Virus record (IMG/VR): IMGVR_UViG_3300050821_007143
Location: 1-49,241 of that record
Source of the DNA: a virus
DNA: 49,241 nt
Strand: one strand, 5' to 3'
Shown here: piece by piece, positions 5,530 to 48,381 of the stretch
Position numbering within the stretch: position 1 is the first letter of the stretch
Layout: every line of letters starts with the position of its first letter
Translations under genes and position numbers: made by a program
Notes under the pieces: generated by a model
Told to the model about the DNA's origin: nothing
Databases searched by the model: none
The model's input: the letters and a program-made list of their open reading frames with translations, nothing else

Positions 5530-6681
5530 CTATCCGACCGCCCGTAGCGTGGGCGCCGGGTGCTTGAAGTTGATCGACTTGCGCAGATGATCAGGGTGCA
5601 GGTGCGCGTAGTGGTCCTCGATCGTCTGCAGCGTGTCGCCCATGATCTTCGAGATATCGAACAACGGCACGGCGGACATCGCCGCGAGCGAGGCCCAGGT
5701 GTGCCGCAGCACATGCGGCGTCACCCACTCCATCCCGATCGCCGCGGTAAAGGTGCGGAACGCCTGCTCGATCCGGCTGGCGTCAAACACCCGCCCGATC
5801 GCCCGCCCGCTGCCATCCTTGGGCGCCTGTTGCCAGGCGCCTTCCAGGATCGGCCGCAGGCGATCGGAGATCGGCATACCCTTGACCCGGCGCTTCTTGG
5901 TCTCGCGGCGGCCAGGGATATTGTAATCGATCAAGCCGAGTACGAGGTCCACCCGGTCCCAGGTCAGCTCCAGGATCGCGCCGCGTCGTGCGGCGGTCTC
6001 CAGCGCCAGGGCGACAAACAACCGCAACCGTGGCGCGCTGGCCCGTAGCATGGGATGGCTGTGCGTCGCGCTGCCCCACGCCATCGCCTGGTCCCAAAAC
6101 CATTGCTCCTGCGCGCGGTCGAGAAACCGGTCCCGCGCCAGTCCCTTGGGCGGTATCACCCCCCGCGTGAACGACGGCAGCTCGGCGAGGTCGATAAGTT
6201 TTTCCTCGACAGCCCAGCGCAGAACGGTCTGCAACGCGCCCACCTCACGTCGCACCGTCCAGTTGCTGAGCCCGCTGCGCTGGCTGTGGTAGCTCCGCAG
6301 CAGGGCCGGGTTGACGACCAGATCGCTCGGCCGATGATGCCCGAGCAGACGCCGCACCGGCCGCAGGACATAGCCATTGCTTTCGTGTTTGCCGATGCGT
6401 GCGGCGTCAGCGAGCCACGCCTCGCACAGCGTGTCGATCGTCGGCTTGGGCTTGGCTATTGGTCCCGACTGGGCTTCGTCCCGCGCGAGGTCGCAGAACG
6501 TCGGGAAATAAGCCTTAGCCTCGTCATAGTCCTTTGTCTTGCAGCTGTGCTTGACCGTGCAGTAGTCCCGGTCCGCGTCGCAGTACCAGATTTCGTAATA
6601 CCCGCGCGCGTTCGGCGTCGGTCTGAGCCTGATCTTGCGGTAGGGTCCGATATCGATCGAATGATGCGTTGTTGTAACCAC
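5530..6681 (-). CDS. int: Tyrosine-type site-specific integrase
   Basis: This is a 383-aa tyrosine recombinase. The N-terminal 75 residues form an arm-type DNA-binding region (RGYYEIWYCDADRDY), then a core-binding domain about 80-170, and a catalytic domain about 185-370. Catalytic residues visible: Arg in ETAARRGAI (about 232), Lys in KKRRVKGMPI (about 267), HVLRH (323-327) and the nucleophile Tyr in EDHYAHLHP (358). It would integrate and excise the prophage or resolve multimers. Its start lies inside the HTH ORF upstream (6456-6818), an unusually long overlap. No attP could be identified with confidence next to the gene. Confidence 0.93.
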   Translation of the reverse strand: MVTTTHHSIDIGPYRKIRLRPTPNARGYYEIWYCDADRDYCTVKHSCKTKDYDEAKAYFPTFCDLARDEAQSGPIAKPKPTIDTLCEAWLADAARIGKHESNGYVLRPVRRLLGHHRPSDLVVNPALLRSYHSQRSGLSNWTVRREVGALQTVLRWAVEEKLIDLAELPSFTRGVIPPKGLARDRFLDRAQEQWFWDQAMAWGSATHSHPMLRASAPRLRLFVALALETAARRGAILELTWDRVDLVLGLIDYNIPGRRETKKRRVKGMPISDRLRPILEGAWQQAPKDGSGRAIGRVFDASRIEQAFRTFTAAIGMEWVTPHVLRHTWASLAAMSAVPLFDISKIMGDTLQTIEDHYAHLHPDHLRKSINFKHPAPTLRAVG

Positions 6682-6818
6682 GCTAAAAACTCCTTTTCGG
6701 GTATCAATACCGGCCGCCCAGGCAACCAGGGCAGCCCGTCAAAACGTCGATGCCGCGCGATGGTGTGAACCGAGCACCGCAGCCGCTGCGCGGCTTCCTG
6801 CTGCGTCAGATATGTCAA
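6456..6818 (-). CDS. MerR-type HTH protein, putative excisionase
   Basis: The first 55 residues form a winged-helix/excisionase-like domain (MTYLTQQEAAQRLRCSVHTI, then RPVLIPEKEFLAWLQQ). The start ATG overlaps the stop of the repressor gene (ATGA), suggesting coupled translation. The remaining 65 residues are Arg/Ser/Thr-rich and lie entirely within the start of int in another frame (about 226 bases of overlap), so the functional part may be only the N-terminal domain. It may act as Xis or as a directionality factor for the integrase. A frameshift or sequencing error shortening the gene cannot be excluded. Confidence 0.65.
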   Translation of the reverse strand: MTYLTQQEAAQRLRCSVHTIARHRRFDGLPWLPGRPVLIPEKEFLAWLQQRIIRSISDPTARSGSDRRRTRAGITKSGTATRTGTTARSSTAARQRTMTRLRLISRRSATSRGTKPSRDQ

Positions 6819-7507
6819 GCGGTCCTGGTCTCCGCCTTGGTCTCGGTATCAGTGCCGCCAACAATCTCGCCGAGAGTTTCGTCGATCGTCACCGCCTCAC
6901 CGATCTCGACTTGTTTGAGCAACCGGTGGATGTGGTCAGCAACTTCCCAGGGGATCACCCGGTCCACCACCAGCCTGATCTTGGTCGGCTGAGCCGGGAG
7001 TGAGGTCATGCTCAGCGTCCCGGTGCTGGCGGCTGTCGTCGACCGTGCCCCGCGCGGCGCCGGGGCTCCCGCCGGGCGCTCGATCGTCAATGTCTCGACG
7101 GGGACACCCAGCGCGCTCGCCAGCTTCTCCAAATTATCCGGCTCGGGATAGCTCGTCCCGGCCAGATAGTGCCCGACGCGGTCCCGGTTGCGTGCGACGG
7201 TGCGGCCGCGGTTGTCGACGGTCGTGCCCCAGATCTGCCGGGCCAGCTCGGACGCGCTCATATCGAGCCGCTCCATGGCTGACCGCAGCGCATCGGCAAA
7301 CGGCTTGTACTCGGGTTTAACAGGGGGTTGCCAGGCAGTCGTGTTACGTCGACTTCTTTTTCTAGTCCGAGGCTCGGCATTGGGGGTCGCCTCCTCCCGT
7401 TCAACGGACACAACTTGTTGTCGTGTCTCTGGTGGAGTGTGGCGGTGTGGTGTGACTTGTGCAACTATTTTTTGTGTGTCCATCGCGGTGTTGTGATCGG
7501 TCATCAT
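6815..7507 (-). CDS. XRE-family HTH transcriptional regulator, probable phage repressor
   Basis: This is a 230-aa protein. The N-terminal 65 residues are basic and low-complexity. Residues about 68-140 are a helix-turn-helix domain (ALRSAMERLDMSASELARQI ... HYLAGTSYPEPDNLEKLASALGV). The C-terminal part has a strand-rich segment (TKIRLVVDRVIPWEVADHIH) and no LexA/S24 peptidase signature. The gene is first in the leftward lysogeny operon and faces a Cro-like gene, the usual arrangement for a lysogeny repressor. Candidate operators overlap its promoter at 7546-7587. Two adjacent ATG codons (7507 and 7504) could start it. Confidence 0.75.
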   Translation of the reverse strand: MMTDHNTAMDTQKIVAQVTPHRHTPPETRQQVVSVEREEATPNAEPRTRKRSRRNTTAWQPPVKPEYKPFADALRSAMERLDMSASELARQIWGTTVDNRGRTVARNRDRVGHYLAGTSYPEPDNLEKLASALGVPVETLTIERPAGAPAPRGARSTTAASTGTLSMTSLPAQPTKIRLVVDRVIPWEVADHIHRLLKQVEIGEAVTIDETLGEIVGGTDTETKAETRTA

Positions 7508-12338: not shown

Positions 12339-12911
12339 ATGGCTGTTTCACTTCGCACCCCGATCGGTGTCCTGTCTTTCCCGGTGCTGTTCTCGCCACG
12401 CCCCCGCGCACCGGGTGGCGAGCCGGTCTATCAGTGCAGCCTGTTGTTTGACCAGGCCGCGCAGCGTGATCCGGCTTACGCCGCGTTGCGTCGCGCCGTG
12501 CTCGAAGAGATCGAGGACAAGAACCCTGGCAAGAGCCAGGACAAGCAGTTCCTCGCCAGTCTGCGCTCGCCGTTTCGCCCCTGTAACGAGAAGTCCTACA
12601 AGGGCTACGACATCCCCAACGGCATGTTTATCTCGCCGTGGACCAAGAGCCGCCCCGGGGTGGTCGACGCCAACCGCAACGAGATCATCGTGCCCGAGGA
12701 CATCTGGCCCGGACAGCTGGCGCGGGCGACCGTCTCGCCCTTCTGGTACAGCCAGAGCGGTAACCGCGGTGTCTCGTTTGCGCTGAACAACCTGCAAATC
12801 TGCCGCACCGACGGCGAGCGGCTCGACGGCCGGCGCTCGGCCAAGGCGGATTTCGACGACTACGACGGCCCCGGCGCGGCAGCGCTGGTCGACGACGAAA
12901 TCCCGTTTTGA
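12339..12911 (+). CDS. DUF2815 family ssDNA-binding-like protein
   Basis: The start at 12339 has AGGAGGA ten bases upstream, the best ribosome-binding site in the operon, consistent with a protein needed in quantity. The 190-aa sequence (LRTPIGVLSFPVLFSPRP, ... YQCSLLF, YDIPNGMFISPWTKSRPGVV, FWYSQSGNRGVSFALNNLQI) matches DUF2815, phage proteins thought to bind single-stranded DNA. The C-terminus is acidic and ends DDEIPF, as in single-stranded DNA-binding proteins that recruit partners through a similar tip. Confidence 0.85.
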   Translation: MAVSLRTPIGVLSFPVLFSPRPRAPGGEPVYQCSLLFDQAAQRDPAYAALRRAVLEEIEDKNPGKSQDKQFLASLRSPFRPCNEKSYKGYDIPNGMFISPWTKSRPGVVDANRNEIIVPEDIWPGQLARATVSPFWYSQSGNRGVSFALNNLQICRTDGERLDGRRSAKADFDDYDGPGAAALVDDEIPF

Positions 12912-42494: not shown

Positions 42495-43429
42495 ACCGTA
42501 CCCCACAAGGTTCCGAGCCAGATCAGCGTCACCGAGGCAAAATCCGACATCAAGGTGTAGGTCGGGTTGTTATCGATCGTCGCTCCCGCCGCTACGATGA
42601 TCGGGTTGCTGCCGGCACTGCCGAGGGCGTCCTTGATGGTGACCAGCTGACCGACGACGCGACCGTTGCCAAGGGTAATGGTGGCGCCACCCGATGCCTG
42701 GACGAGGAGCAGGTAGTTGGCCCCGGTGGGCGGGGTAAAGCCGCCGGACCCGGTAAAAGGCGGCGGGCTAAAGGCTTGCGGCAGCGTAAAAACAAAGATC
42801 TGCACAATGTCGCCGGATGCGGCCGGCTGGGTGAGCGTGATCTGGTTGGCGACTGTCTCGTTGTAGTCGTCGGTCGGGGTCAGCAGCAGACCGCGGCGAA
42901 AGACCTGGGTGCGCTGCGGAACGGTAGGGTCGAAAGCGAGGGTGCTGGCGTTGCGGTCAGGGCCTTGAAAAACCGTCTGGTTAAGGCTGGCGAGATAGAC
43001 ATAGCGGGCGGTATTGGTTGGCGCCGGAGGCAAGGCATTCTGCCAGTTCGACACCTGCTGGGCCGCCCGGTTGGCCCACCAGCGCGAGGACCAGTGATCA
43101 CCGGTGATGTCCGCCGAGGCCAGGATATTAGGCGGTATGGTGTCCGGCATGTGCTCGGCCCAGGCACCCGCCAGGGTCGCGTAGTCGCTGGCTAGAGCCG
43201 TGCCGTCGGCCCCGGCGACCGGGGTCGGGTCGGATTTCGGGGCAGCCTTGAGCGAGCCATCCGAGTTAAGACTGGTCCCGACCCAGGCGATGACATCCGA
43301 GATCACCTTGGCGGTCTGCGCGTGCTCGCTGTCGAGCTTGTCCCCGGGCGGCGGCGCGGTGGGGTTGCTCACCTGAAAAGAAGTGAACGAATACTGCGGC
43401 TTCGGCGGCTGTGGTTGAGGGGCGCTCAT
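42491..43429 (-). CDS. Tail fibre protein (paralogous N-terminus)
   Basis: This is a 312-aa protein. Residues 12-55 ([32 protein letters not shown]) and about 88-122 ([31 protein letters not shown]) repeat the N-terminal modules of the next fibre gene, so both likely attach to the tail through the same domain. The C-terminal part is beta-rich ([28 protein letters not shown]). It probably binds host surface structures. Confidence 0.65.
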
Positions 43430-45336
43430 AACCGGGCTTCCAGGGCTTCAACACGCGCCATGGCCTCCTGTAAAGCCTTGGCAAGAGACGCCATCACCGC
43501 CATCAGATCGGGCGACTGGATAAGGTTCGGCGCGTCCTTGTGCCCGCTCGCCGCGCTCGGCAGCAGCGTCTCCTGCAGCTCGTGCGCGAGAAAACCCCAG
43601 CGTTCGGTGGGTTCGGCCCGATACAGCTCGCCAAAATCCTTGATCGTGTAGCTGATCGGGCGCAACGCCTTGACTTTGTCCCAGGTCGAGAAGAGCGGCG
43701 CGATGTTGGCCTTGATCCGGTAATCGCAGGTAAAGGCAAAGGTGCCCATATTGGTGCTGTCGATCCACAGATTTGCACCGGGTGCCCAGTCGATACTAAA
43801 GGAGTTCGGGCGAGAAGGTCCGGCCCCGCCTGCGCGGACCTGGAAGCCAAAAGAAGTACCTATTTGTCCAGTAGCGCCAAGTGTACCGACAATGCTGGTC
43901 CCGGTACTGGCGATCGTCAACTGCGAGGCGGCGCCATTGATCGACTGAAAATTATGCTGGGTATTACGGTAGAAATTAGTTCCACTACCTGAAAGAAAAG
44001 ATACGTTACCGGCGCCATCGTAAAGCTGGACACTCCCGCTGGCAGCGGTTATCGCGTTAAAGCCGGCGACAGAAACAATACCGGTGAAGTTCGGGTTGGC
44101 GATCGGCGCAAAGGTCGATGTCGGGATGCTTGAAGTGACCGTATTGGCGCTCGCCGCGATCGGGATCTGCCCGGCGACCATGCCGGTCATGTTGGCCGCG
44201 CCGGTCGCCCCGGTCGCCCCGGTGGTCCCGGTCGGCCCCGCCGGGCCTTGCGGTCCCACCCCGCCGGTCGCCCCGGTGGCCCCGGTCGGCCCCGCCGCGC
44301 CTTGCGGTCCCACCCCGCCGGTCGCCCCGGTGGCCCCGGTCGGCCCCGCCGCGCCTTGCGGTCCCACCCCGCCGGTTGCGCCCGTTGCGCCAGTCGCACC
44401 GCTCGACCCCGTCGGCCCGATCGGTCCCGGCACCGTGCTGGCCGCGCCGGTGGCCCCGGTCGCACCGGCAATTCCCGTAGCGCCGCTTGGGCCCGCCACG
44501 CCCTGCAGCCCCTGCGGGCCGAGCGGACCCTGGGGGCCCGCAGGACCGACAGCGCCGGTGGCGCCGGCAGGACCCTGCGGACCCGCCGGGCCGGTGGCGC
44601 CGCCGCCCGGCCCGATCGGGCCAATCGGCCCCGTGGCACCGGTCGGGCCGGGTGGGCCGACGTGGTTTACGTCAAAGATTTCAGCGGCCTGGTTGGCCCA
44701 CCAGCGCGAGGACCAGTGGTCCCCGGTGAGCCCCATCACCGCCAGGATATTGGGCGGGATCGGGTCCGGCATGTGCTCGGCCCAGGCTTGGGTGACGAGA
44801 CCATAATCCTCGCACAAAGCCTCGACGCCATCGGCATGGTTGGCGGAATTGCCGGCGTCGGTGGCGCTGGCGGCAGCCGCCGCGGCCGATGCCGCGGCAT
44901 CGGCGGCCGAACTCGCCGCGTCCTGCGCCTCGCTCGAAGACCGCGCGGCGGCATCCTGGGCCGAAGCGTTGCCGGCTTCGGCCGCGGCAGCCGCGGCACC
45001 GGCGCCGGCGGCAGCGGCGGCGGTCTGGGCGGACGCCGCCAGGGCGCTCTCGACGAGGCCCTCGACGCGGGTCGAAGCGGTGGTCACGATATCGTCGAAA
45101 AGCCCAGGGATCAGCTGGGTTTTGCCGACTGTGGCGGGGCGCAGGGAACCATCGGAATTGAGGCTGGCGCCGGCCCAGGCGAGGGTTTCGCGCAGGGCTT
45201 TATCGGTGCGGGCGAGTTCACCGTCGAGACGGTCGCCGGGGGGCGGGGAAGACGGGTGATGAAGCTGAAAGTCGGCAAACGAGAACTGCCGCGCGGGGGG
45301 CGCGGGAAGCGGGGCGTGCGTGCCGTTCACCGCCAT
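43426..45336 (-). CDS. Collagen-like tail fibre with S74-type C-terminal chaperone domain
   Basis: The ATG at 45336 makes the N-terminus align with the paralogous fibre (RQFSFADFQ with PQYSFTSFQ) and is preferred to the GTG at 45390, which overlaps the parS-like site. The 636-aa protein has an attachment domain, Ala-rich coiled coil (about residues 85-145), a second attachment module ([16 protein letters not shown]), about 155 residues of Gly-X-Y collagen-like repeats, beta-rich sequence and a C-terminal S74 intramolecular chaperone domain (CDYRIKANI ... [10 protein letters not shown]). The usual catalytic Ser of SDxRxK is Cys here, so self-cleavage is uncertain. Confidence 0.8.
44200..44662. 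repeat. Collagen-like repeat-coding region
   Basis: Gly-X-Y codons, with a 54-bp unit (18 residues, [18 protein letters not shown]) repeated three times at about 44240-44390. In-frame length variation is expected. The long plus-strand ORFs here are mirror images of the repeat. Confidence 0.85.
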
Positions 45337-45363
45337 TTCAGGCCCGTGCGCCCCCGTGTCGCG

Positions 45364-45379
45364 TGTTTCACGTGAAACA
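45364..45379. promoter_or_regulatory. Perfect 16-bp parS-like palindrome (ParB binding site)
   Basis: TGTTTCACGTGAAACA is a perfect 16-bp palindrome and equals the chromosomal parS consensus bound by ParB in many bacteria, including alphaproteobacteria. It lies 28 bases before the tail-fibre start. A chance exact hit of one 16-mer in 49 kb is of order 1 in 100,000. No parA or parB gene is visible in the window, so host ParB would be the ligand. Function is inferred. Confidence 0.7.
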
Positions 45380-45541
45380 ACACTACGCACGACACGCTAC
45401 AAAAGACAAGAAGTGCGGTATAAAGCGCGGGTAAGCGTGCAAAATCGCCCGACCGCGCCGGGAGTACGGGTGCCGACCGAAACCGCCGCGCCAGACGCCA
45501 ACCGGCCGGAGCGGGGGCCGCCCGAGCCCCTAGAATAGACC

Positions 45542-45559
45542 GGTGGATAGCGGGGATAA
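45542..45559 (-). promoter_or_regulatory. Two adjacent DnaA-box-like sequences
   Basis: On the minus strand TTATCCCCG (45559-45551) and CTATCCACC (45550-45542) each match seven of nine bases of TTATCCACA and are directly adjacent. Such weak matches arise by chance fairly often; the neighbouring iterons make them worth noting. The rest of 45380-45541 shows nothing clear. Confidence 0.3.
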
Positions 45560-45659
45560 GTGCCCCCGCCGGGCCGAAAAATATGCGGGCCTCGCGCGCG
45601 CGTATAGTGGGCAGATATGGCGGAAATCCGGGGCCTAAAACGCTACGGTCCCGGTTACC

Positions 45660-45724
45660 GAAGATAGCCGACCCGACCCGAAGATAGCCGACCCGAAGAT
45701 AGCCGACCCGAAGATAGCCAAACC
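45660..45724. repeat. Four 15-bp iteron-like direct repeats
   Basis: GAAGATAGCCGACCC occurs exactly at 45660-45674, 45680-45694 and 45695-45709, with a diverged copy (GAAGATAGCCAAACC) at 45710-45724; a GACCC insert separates copies one and two. Direct repeats of this size in a gene-free region are typical of plasmid iterons or regulator-binding arrays. On the minus strand they would read as GYLRV repeats, but that ORF is not credible. Confidence 0.8.
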
Positions 45725-45825
45725 GCGACTTGGTGGGAAAAGCAGTCACGGGTTCAACGGCCGCGGCCGGGGACCCCCCAGGGGGGCGGAAGCCCTGGGG
45801 CCGTGCCGGTCCCGGACCGGTCGGA

Positions 45826-45865
45826 CTGGTCCCGTGCTTCCTTGGACAGGAAGACGCGGGACCAG
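45826..45865. terminator. Compound hairpin after the small terminase-like gene
   Basis: CTGGTCCCG (45826-45834) pairs with CGGGACCAG (45857-45865), and inside it CTTCC pairs with GGAAG around a seven-base loop. An A/T pair extends the base. It lies 13 bases after the stop of the gene at 45879 on the minus strand. Its arms equal those of the hairpin after the capsid gene. Further GC-rich palindromes fill 45765-45825. Confidence 0.5.
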
Positions 45866-45878
45866 TGATAACAAGGGC

Positions 45879-46770: not shown

Positions 46771-48381
46771 ATGGCTTATCCCTCCCACGTAGCGCGCAAC
46801 GCGCTGCGCCGTGCCTTGCGGGACCATCCGCAGGCGTCGACCGTGCTCAACGGCCGGCTCGTCAACTCATTATCCCTGGACAACCTCTATAAAGCCTTGG
46901 AAACGCTAGGGGAAAACCCCGACGCCATCTATCAGGGCGCAATTGCCGCCGCAAACAATAAAGCCCCACCAAGCCCCTGCGGCATCACGCCACAATCACG
47001 CGAGGATGAGAGTTTCTGCGCCTTGGGTTTCGGCACGCGTCAAAAGTGCCCGAACATGTGCAAAGGCACCTGCGGATATTCCAAGCCTGCCGAGGAAATC
47101 GAGCCCCCCATGCCCATTGAGCCCCTTGACGAGACCGAGACCATCGCGCCCGACGCGATCGAAACCGAAGTGCAAGTGATCCGGGGTTTGATCATCACCG
47201 GCGGGTTTGCCGCGCTCGATGACCGGCTCCGGGAACTGGTCCGCGAAGCGCACAAGCCACCCGTTGAAGTGCGCGTTGAAGTGCCGGTTGAAGTCCCGGT
47301 GGCTGGTCCCGTTTCAGGACAAGCGGTCCCCCACGCCAAACCGACCGGCAAGCAAGGCACCTGGCACGGCTTGTTTGGGGTTTCCGGCGCCATGGGCAAG
47401 CGCGAGACCCAACTGTGGGATGGCGCGCATCCCGACACGCCAAAGGTCAACGATCGCTACCTCTGGCCGCATCCCCAAACCGAGACCGCGTTGGTCCAGC
47501 TGTCCCGGGGGCGCAACGTCATGCTTTATGGTCCCGCAGGCACCGGTAAGACCGAGTTTGCGCAACAGCTGGCCGCCAAGACCGGCCGGCCGTTCGCCTT
47601 GATCAGCTGCGATGCCGGCACCGATGCCGCGACACTGGTCGGGATGACAGTGCCGGCGAGCGATGGTGGCGTGACCTGGCAAGACGGGCAGCTGACCAGG
47701 GCGATTAAAACGCCCGGTTGCGTGATTTGCCTTGATGAGCCCTCGATTGCCCGGGCCGGCGCATTGTTCGTCATGCAGAACGTCCTGGCGAACAGGATGC
47801 TGTTCATTGCCGAGACCGGGCAAAGAGTATGCGTTGCTTCGGGCGTAATCTTCATCGCAACCGACAACACCAACGGGACCGGTGGCGGCGCACGGCGAGG
47901 CTATACCGACACGAACAGGCTCAATGCCGCGTTTTTAGATCGCTTTGGCGTGCGCGTGAAGGTCGATTACATGGCGCCCGATGCCGAAGCCGACGTGATC
48001 GTGGGCTACACCGGCTGCACCAGGGAATTGGCTACGTTGCTGGTCTCGGCTGCCAGCGTGACCAGGGCTGCGGCCGATAGCCAGACGTTGAGCCATGGGA
48101 TCGGTCTTAGGCGGTTGCTCTCATGGGCGGAATTGCTCACCGATGGCATTGACGCCGAAGAGGCGTTTCAAGCTGCCGTGCTGAACTGTGCCGCCGAACA
48201 GGATGTCGAAGCACTGCGCGAACAGTGCCTGCTCGCTTACGACAAGGCACAGGTAAAGGCCGCTTTAAACCCGAGCACGCCAGCCCCGGCCGATCCGGCG
48301 ATCGTCAACCCGACACCGGCCGGGCGTTCGGCAGCGGACGATTTCTCCGATAACCCGCACCCCGCTTTCCGGCGCTACTAA
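46771..48381 (+). CDS. MoxR/CobS-like AAA+ ATPase
   Basis: This is a 536-aa protein with AAAAGGA about eleven bases before its ATG. Residues about 70-103 hold a Cys cluster (CGI...SFCALGFGTRQKCPNMCKGT...CGY) that could bind zinc. A Val/Glu/Pro-rich linker (about 180-196, VEVRVEVPVEVPV) precedes the AAA+ domain: Walker A GPAGTGKTE, Walker B VICLDE, sensor 1 FIATDNT and the arginine-finger region AFLDRFG. The C-terminal 200 residues are helical with a Pro-rich end. Its partner is the HEXXH-VWA protein encoded next. MoxR-VWA pairs act as chaperones or metal-insertion machines. Confidence 0.88.
   Translation: MAYPSHVARNALRRALRDHPQASTVLNGRLVNSLSLDNLYKALETLGENPDAIYQGAIAAANNKAPPSPCGITPQSREDESFCALGFGTRQKCPNMCKGTCGYSKPAEEIEPPMPIEPLDETETIAPDAIETEVQVIRGLIITGGFAALDDRLRELVREAHKPPVEVRVEVPVEVPVAGPVSGQAVPHAKPTGKQGTWHGLFGVSGAMGKRETQLWDGAHPDTPKVNDRYLWPHPQTETALVQLSRGRNVMLYGPAGTGKTEFAQQLAAKTGRPFALISCDAGTDAATLVGMTVPASDGGVTWQDGQLTRAIKTPGCVICLDEPSIARAGALFVMQNVLANRMLFIAETGQRVCVASGVIFIATDNTNGTGGGARRGYTDTNRLNAAFLDRFGVRVKVDYMAPDAEADVIVGYTGCTRELATLLVSAASVTRAAADSQTLSHGIGLRRLLSWAELLTDGIDAEEAFQAAVLNCAAEQDVEALREQCLLAYDKAQVKAALNPSTPAPADPAIVNPTPAGRSAADDFSDNPHPAFRRY

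Follow-up and report, generated by a model that had tools for sequence, protein, structure and literature searches.

Why would a temperate phage that encodes no partition proteins carry the centromere of a bacterial chromosome? The 49,241-base virus record analysed here (IMG/VR IMGVR_UViG_3300050821_007143, in its entirety called the window) contains the 16-base palindrome TGTTTCACGTGAAACA precisely at 45364-45379. An earlier note on this DNA had described the site as a perfect 16-bp chromosomal parS consensus, and the match is indeed exact: the 16-mer is identical to the idealised consensus parS of structural work on Caulobacter ParB (PMC7383237) and, judged by consensus match, is a parS of chromosomal type. 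No other site was found in the window at one or two mismatches, as the note had proposed to check, or even at three, at which shuffled windows gave a mean of 0.07 matches. Under iid models and Markov models of order 1-3, an exact match was expected 1.5e-6 to 3.7e-6 times. The observation of an exact parS in this phage is confirmed. A chance match or an assembly artefact is very improbable. The site is found in a minority of relatives and the contig end repeat is built of low-complexity 39-bp coding units, both of which would suit such an origin, but the expectation is minute, related genomes carry the site independently, and the flanking genes are collinear with those of the Microcystis phage Mae-Yong1326-1 (OP028995). 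A DNA search of INPHARED with the palindrome region returned collagen-repeat matches and nothing else.

The virus is a temperate podovirus from soil. Its record encodes a tyrosine integrase (5530-6681, minus strand), an HTH repressor-like protein (6815-7507, minus strand), a polymerase, an SNF2 helicase, an exonuclease, TerL and a collagen/S74 tail fibre; the prophage lifestyle that had been proposed is borne out by the integrase and the repressor. An operator of the phage repressor was ruled out as an identity for the palindrome because no second copy lies near 7507. A six-frame search of the full 49,241-base record matched neither ParB_N (PF02195) nor a ParA-type ATPase (AAA_31/ParA, PF13614), in agreement with the claim that ParA and ParB homologues are missing from the genome, and the record thus holds neither of the two proteins of a phage-encoded parABS. 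Nor does it appear to be a phage-plasmid, defined by plasmid replication genes and no integrase, since the integrase is present. Four iteron-like direct repeats of GAAGATAGCCGACCC (45658-45720, spacing 15-20 bp; like the palindrome, not assigned to a strand) lie 280 bases from the palindrome within its gene-free region. They are at most suggestive of phage-plasmid status and may represent an origin or packaging site; the equivalent region in relatives contains other short repeats. A CobS-like AAA ATPase (46771-48381) and a CobT/VWA-like protein (245-1078) form a pair straddling the contig ends, as in OP028995, an arrangement that argues for a genome that is circular or permuted. Immediately 3' of the CobT/VWA-like ORF, a type II hammerhead ribozyme (RF02276; 1087-1165, plus strand) scored 40.5 bits, above the gathering score, with its core elements CUGAUGA, GUC and CGAAAC intact.

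Does the likely host use the same centromere? By TerL, the nearest prophage is in a Devosia MAG (L212, 56%), and a related capsid protein is encoded in 5 of 398 Hyphomicrobiales genomes, from which we infer that the host is a Hyphomicrobiales bacterium. In all five capsid-bearing genomes, GTTTCACGTGAAAC-type sites are tightly clustered (3-8 per genome), and in Devosia the cluster is on the contig of the best ParB match, within about 1-8 kb. The lineage of the predicted host therefore uses the same sequence, and calling the phage site host-type is justified by identical chromosomal clusters in that order, beside parB in Devosia.

The exact sequence, the lack of phage ParA and ParB, the host-lineage clusters and the recurrence of single copies at three late intergenic places (described below) are the observed basis of the reading that we favour, tentatively and with slightly less than even confidence: a host-type parS has been acquired and kept by some phages of this group, where it would nucleate host ParB and tie the phage genome to ParABS/SMC. 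ParB nucleates on parS and needs CTP for spreading to neighbouring DNA (PMC7053999, PMC8367383). In an infected cell, host chromosomal ParB would nucleate on the single phage parS, clamp and then slide onto phage DNA; a circular or replicating phage genome would thereby be tied to the host ParABS/SMC machinery, with positioning, segregation or condensation of phage DNA as the outcome. On this reading, the palindrome would give host ParB one place at which to nucleate, and its use would probably be the tethering, segregation or condensation of phage DNA; ParB binding, ParB spreading and a benefit to the phage are all predictions. An integrase is present in nearly all relatives, which leaves no obvious need for stable segregation as an episome and counts against this reading. 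If it is true, a host centromere alone would be a minimal route to borrowing chromosome segregation or condensation machinery, and limits on prophage integration positions would be predicted, ectopic parS being harmful in Caulobacter.

The earlier note had proposed that the phage loads host ParB either to be segregated like a plasmid or to disturb host segregation, an interpretation that is overall plausible and partly supported. Its second option amounts to a decoy or attack, in which the many parS copies of a replicating phage titrate or misdirect host ParB and so disturb segregation and division. Extra parS can be toxic or costly, as in Caulobacter, where two strong parS sites on a plasmid are lethal and fitness falls with an ectopic chromosomal parS (PMC5815017). 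The phage, however, has one site per genome and is temperate, so that a toxic site would harm its own lysogen, and no sequence evidence separates a decoy from tethering; we consider such an attack quite improbable.

The immediate setting of the palindrome raises a different possibility. The tail-fibre gene (collagen repeats, S74 chaperone; 43426-45336, minus strand) starts at an ATG at 45336, its N-terminus is conserved in relatives, and homologous tail-fibre N-termini begin at or near this ATG. Between it and the palindrome we counted 27 bases, where 28 had been given. The description of the surroundings as gene-free holds for about 45337-45878 but fails if an alternative, longer tail-fibre ORF is read from GTG 45390, which would span the palindrome. 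On the minus strand, a promoter-like element, TTGTCT-N18-TAGTGT (45380-45409), is followed by the palindrome, the 27 bases and the tail-fibre ATG, such that the putative -10 abuts the palindrome. A strict sigma-70 consensus scan did not detect this element; the same arrangement is found before the tail fibre in many relatives, including many that have no palindrome, and is consistent with promoter activity. The overlap with this candidate promoter may keep transcription control in play.

About 200 loci of relatives were gathered by TerL, capsid and tail-fibre searches. Among the near-complete relatives (records of at least 46 kb, window counted), 6/23 have exactly one strict parS (GTTNCACGTGNAAC, 0 mismatches) and 0/23 have two, although this one-per-genome exclusivity is not significant with so few genomes. 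When one mismatch to GTTNCACGTGNAAC was allowed, 8 of the 30 records searched matched, versus 2 for the reversed control. The strict sites of the six genomes are not all at one homologous position: strict or near-strict parS is spread over three late intergenic places, which rules out ortholog-position conservation as the sole explanation. The first is the tail-fibre promoter, occupied in the window and in L134, L137 and L153, where TGTTTCACGTGTAACG overlaps the spacer and the -10. The second is directly ahead of the -35 of the scaffold/capsid promoter, with the exact 16-mer in L312 and TGTTACACGTGAAACA in L326-L328; the element there had been considered an antisense promoter of the tail-fibre type but was reassigned, from the sequences, as a sense promoter, TAGACA-N17-CATAAS. 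The third is behind the capsid gene (L141, L168, L281 and L282). At the promoter-linked sites the CACGTG centre is constant and changes are confined to positions 1, 5, 12 or 16, the positions at which chromosomal parS likewise varies. Across about 2.3 Mb of relatives, no other non-coding AT-rich palindrome of 14 bp recurred as often as GTTTCACGTGAAAC; GATCATCGATGATC was as frequent and was judged coding from its recurring position within TerL. The most frequent 14-bp palindromes of the phage group are of the GGTCCCGGGACC type (L122-L396; positions 21431 and 36037 of the window).

Strict parS is missing from most near-complete relatives (17/23 records of at least 46 kb) and was not found in the Devosia prophage, in Mae-Yong1326-1 or in the prophage regions of the other sampled host genomes; the element is therefore optional in the group. 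Conservation among close relatives, which the note had made a test of its proposal, thus came out divided, with near-identical sites in several relatives and none in most near-complete genomes and sampled prophages. On a capsid tree, the parS label needs about four gains or losses and is limited to one large clade. Conservation is patchy but not random, and the near-identical sites suggest that such viruses may borrow host ParB. One relative (G050, the record of L181/L333) encodes a 416-aa ParB_N protein of its own at 12630-12890 and has no strict parS.

The positions of these sites bear on the main functional rival, in which host ParB binds the phage parS but controls local transcription, repressing or timing late genes from the tail-fibre or scaffold promoter, as it might in the lysogen. 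In the window the site abuts the -10, the sites of L134, L137 and L153 overlap the spacer and the -10, and those of L312 and L326 are just upstream of the -35; there is also a precedent in P. aeruginosa, where chromosomal ParB bound to intergenic parS ahead of PA0011 and PA0013 represses both genes (PMC7022226). The placement of site relative to promoter nevertheless differs among lineages, a terminator and not a promoter precedes several of the sites, and the same promoters lack parS in most relatives. We regard promoter control as rather unlikely. That the copies are single and change position mildly favours a role for the whole genome over that of an operator for one gene.

It is equally necessary to consider whether the palindrome matters as a structure that matches parS by coincidence, be it an RNA hairpin in the 5' leader or beside a terminator, or a generic dyad. 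Behind the capsid gene, a GTTTC-N4-GAAAC stem is kept with the centres ACGT, ACCT, ATGT, ACAT, ATTT and TTTT; these dyads adjoin a GC-rich terminator-like hairpin in many relatives, and the 14-mer of L282 is itself the apex of such a hairpin. The scaffold promoters of other relatives bear unrelated perfect palindromes, for example TGTCCTGCGCAGGACA and GTTTTGTCCCGCGGGACAAAAC. The slots at the scaffold promoter and behind the capsid gene therefore tolerate dyads generally, and the broken-centre variants behind the capsid gene count against loading of host ParB. A CACATG-centre variant, however, is also located inside the chromosomal parS cluster of a host genome (G230), so centre variants alone do not exclude ParB. 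Folding of the leader was no better than that of shuffles (z -0.54), the promoter-linked sites hold CACGTG, GTTTCACGTGAAAC leads the non-coding AT-rich palindromes of the group, and independent exact parS at several places would be improbable for hairpins of free sequence. We regard a structural coincidence as rather unlikely, though a serious alternative.

Across IMG/VR, the exact 16-mer was present in at least 120 contigs and the mirrored palindrome in 1; same-stem and single-substitution controls gave raw counts of 33, 109 and at least 120. The raw parS count was dropped as evidence of enrichment because these controls are also frequent. It is the intergenic fraction, not the raw count, that separates parS from the controls. 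With genes called by a greedy ORF rule, which makes all these fractions approximate, exact parS was intergenic in 66/144 unique contexts (46%) against a background of 10%, the core-preserving variant in 18/90, the core-broken control in 7/79 (9%; P = 6e-9 versus parS) and the same-stem palindrome with an AGCT centre in 0/25 (0%; P = 2e-6 versus parS). The last comparison speaks against a structural role.

ParB_N was absent from 46 of 50 long IMG/VR contigs with exact parS, some of which may be mis-binned host DNA. Of 19 intergenic parS contigs without ParB that were tested, 6 matched phrog_2, which we take to be a terminase family; as the window's own TerL was missed by this search, the phage nature of the other contigs is neither confirmed nor denied by it. 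Four unrelated contigs without ParB_N (L010, L069, L097 and L113) each have at least two intergenic parS or parS-like sites, some in close pairs and some at repeated promoters. We offer as a possibility, somewhat more doubtful than host ParB loading in the present group, that carrying a host-type parS but no par genes is a strategy that recurs among temperate and other tailed phages, which would load the host ParB clamp to hitchhike on or perturb host ParABS/SMC; the window would then exemplify a group found widely in IMG/VR.

We found no report of parS in phages without ParB in the open literature that was searched, and the note's suggestion that such a system is undescribed stands within that scope. 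Known phage partition systems supply their own ParA, ParB and parS. The phage 16-mer equals the idealised consensus of bacterial chromosomal ParABS (ParB/Spo0J-parS), and its 14-mer is clustered in chromosomes of the host order; unlike the chromosomal sites, it is single, late-gene intergenic and without adjacent parA or parB. P1 and the mycobacteriophages RedRock and Miko are likewise temperate phages with a centromere, but with their own ParA/ParB and their own sites, whereas the present phage encodes an integrase and lacks Par proteins. RedRock has parABS in place of an integrase, and its centromere consists of an 8-bp motif repeated eight times (PMC7157519). Mae-Yong1326-1 is collinear in CobS/CobT, the RecA-like ATPase, integrase, repressor, RuvC, SNF2, exonuclease and polymerase, with TerL at 57%, but has no parS-like site at up to three mismatches. 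Prophage CGP3, with its actin-like AlpC, also offers a parallel, as a phage reported to place its DNA by a cytoskeletal or segregation-type system (PMC4446434); there, however, the filament is phage-encoded and no parS is reported to be involved.
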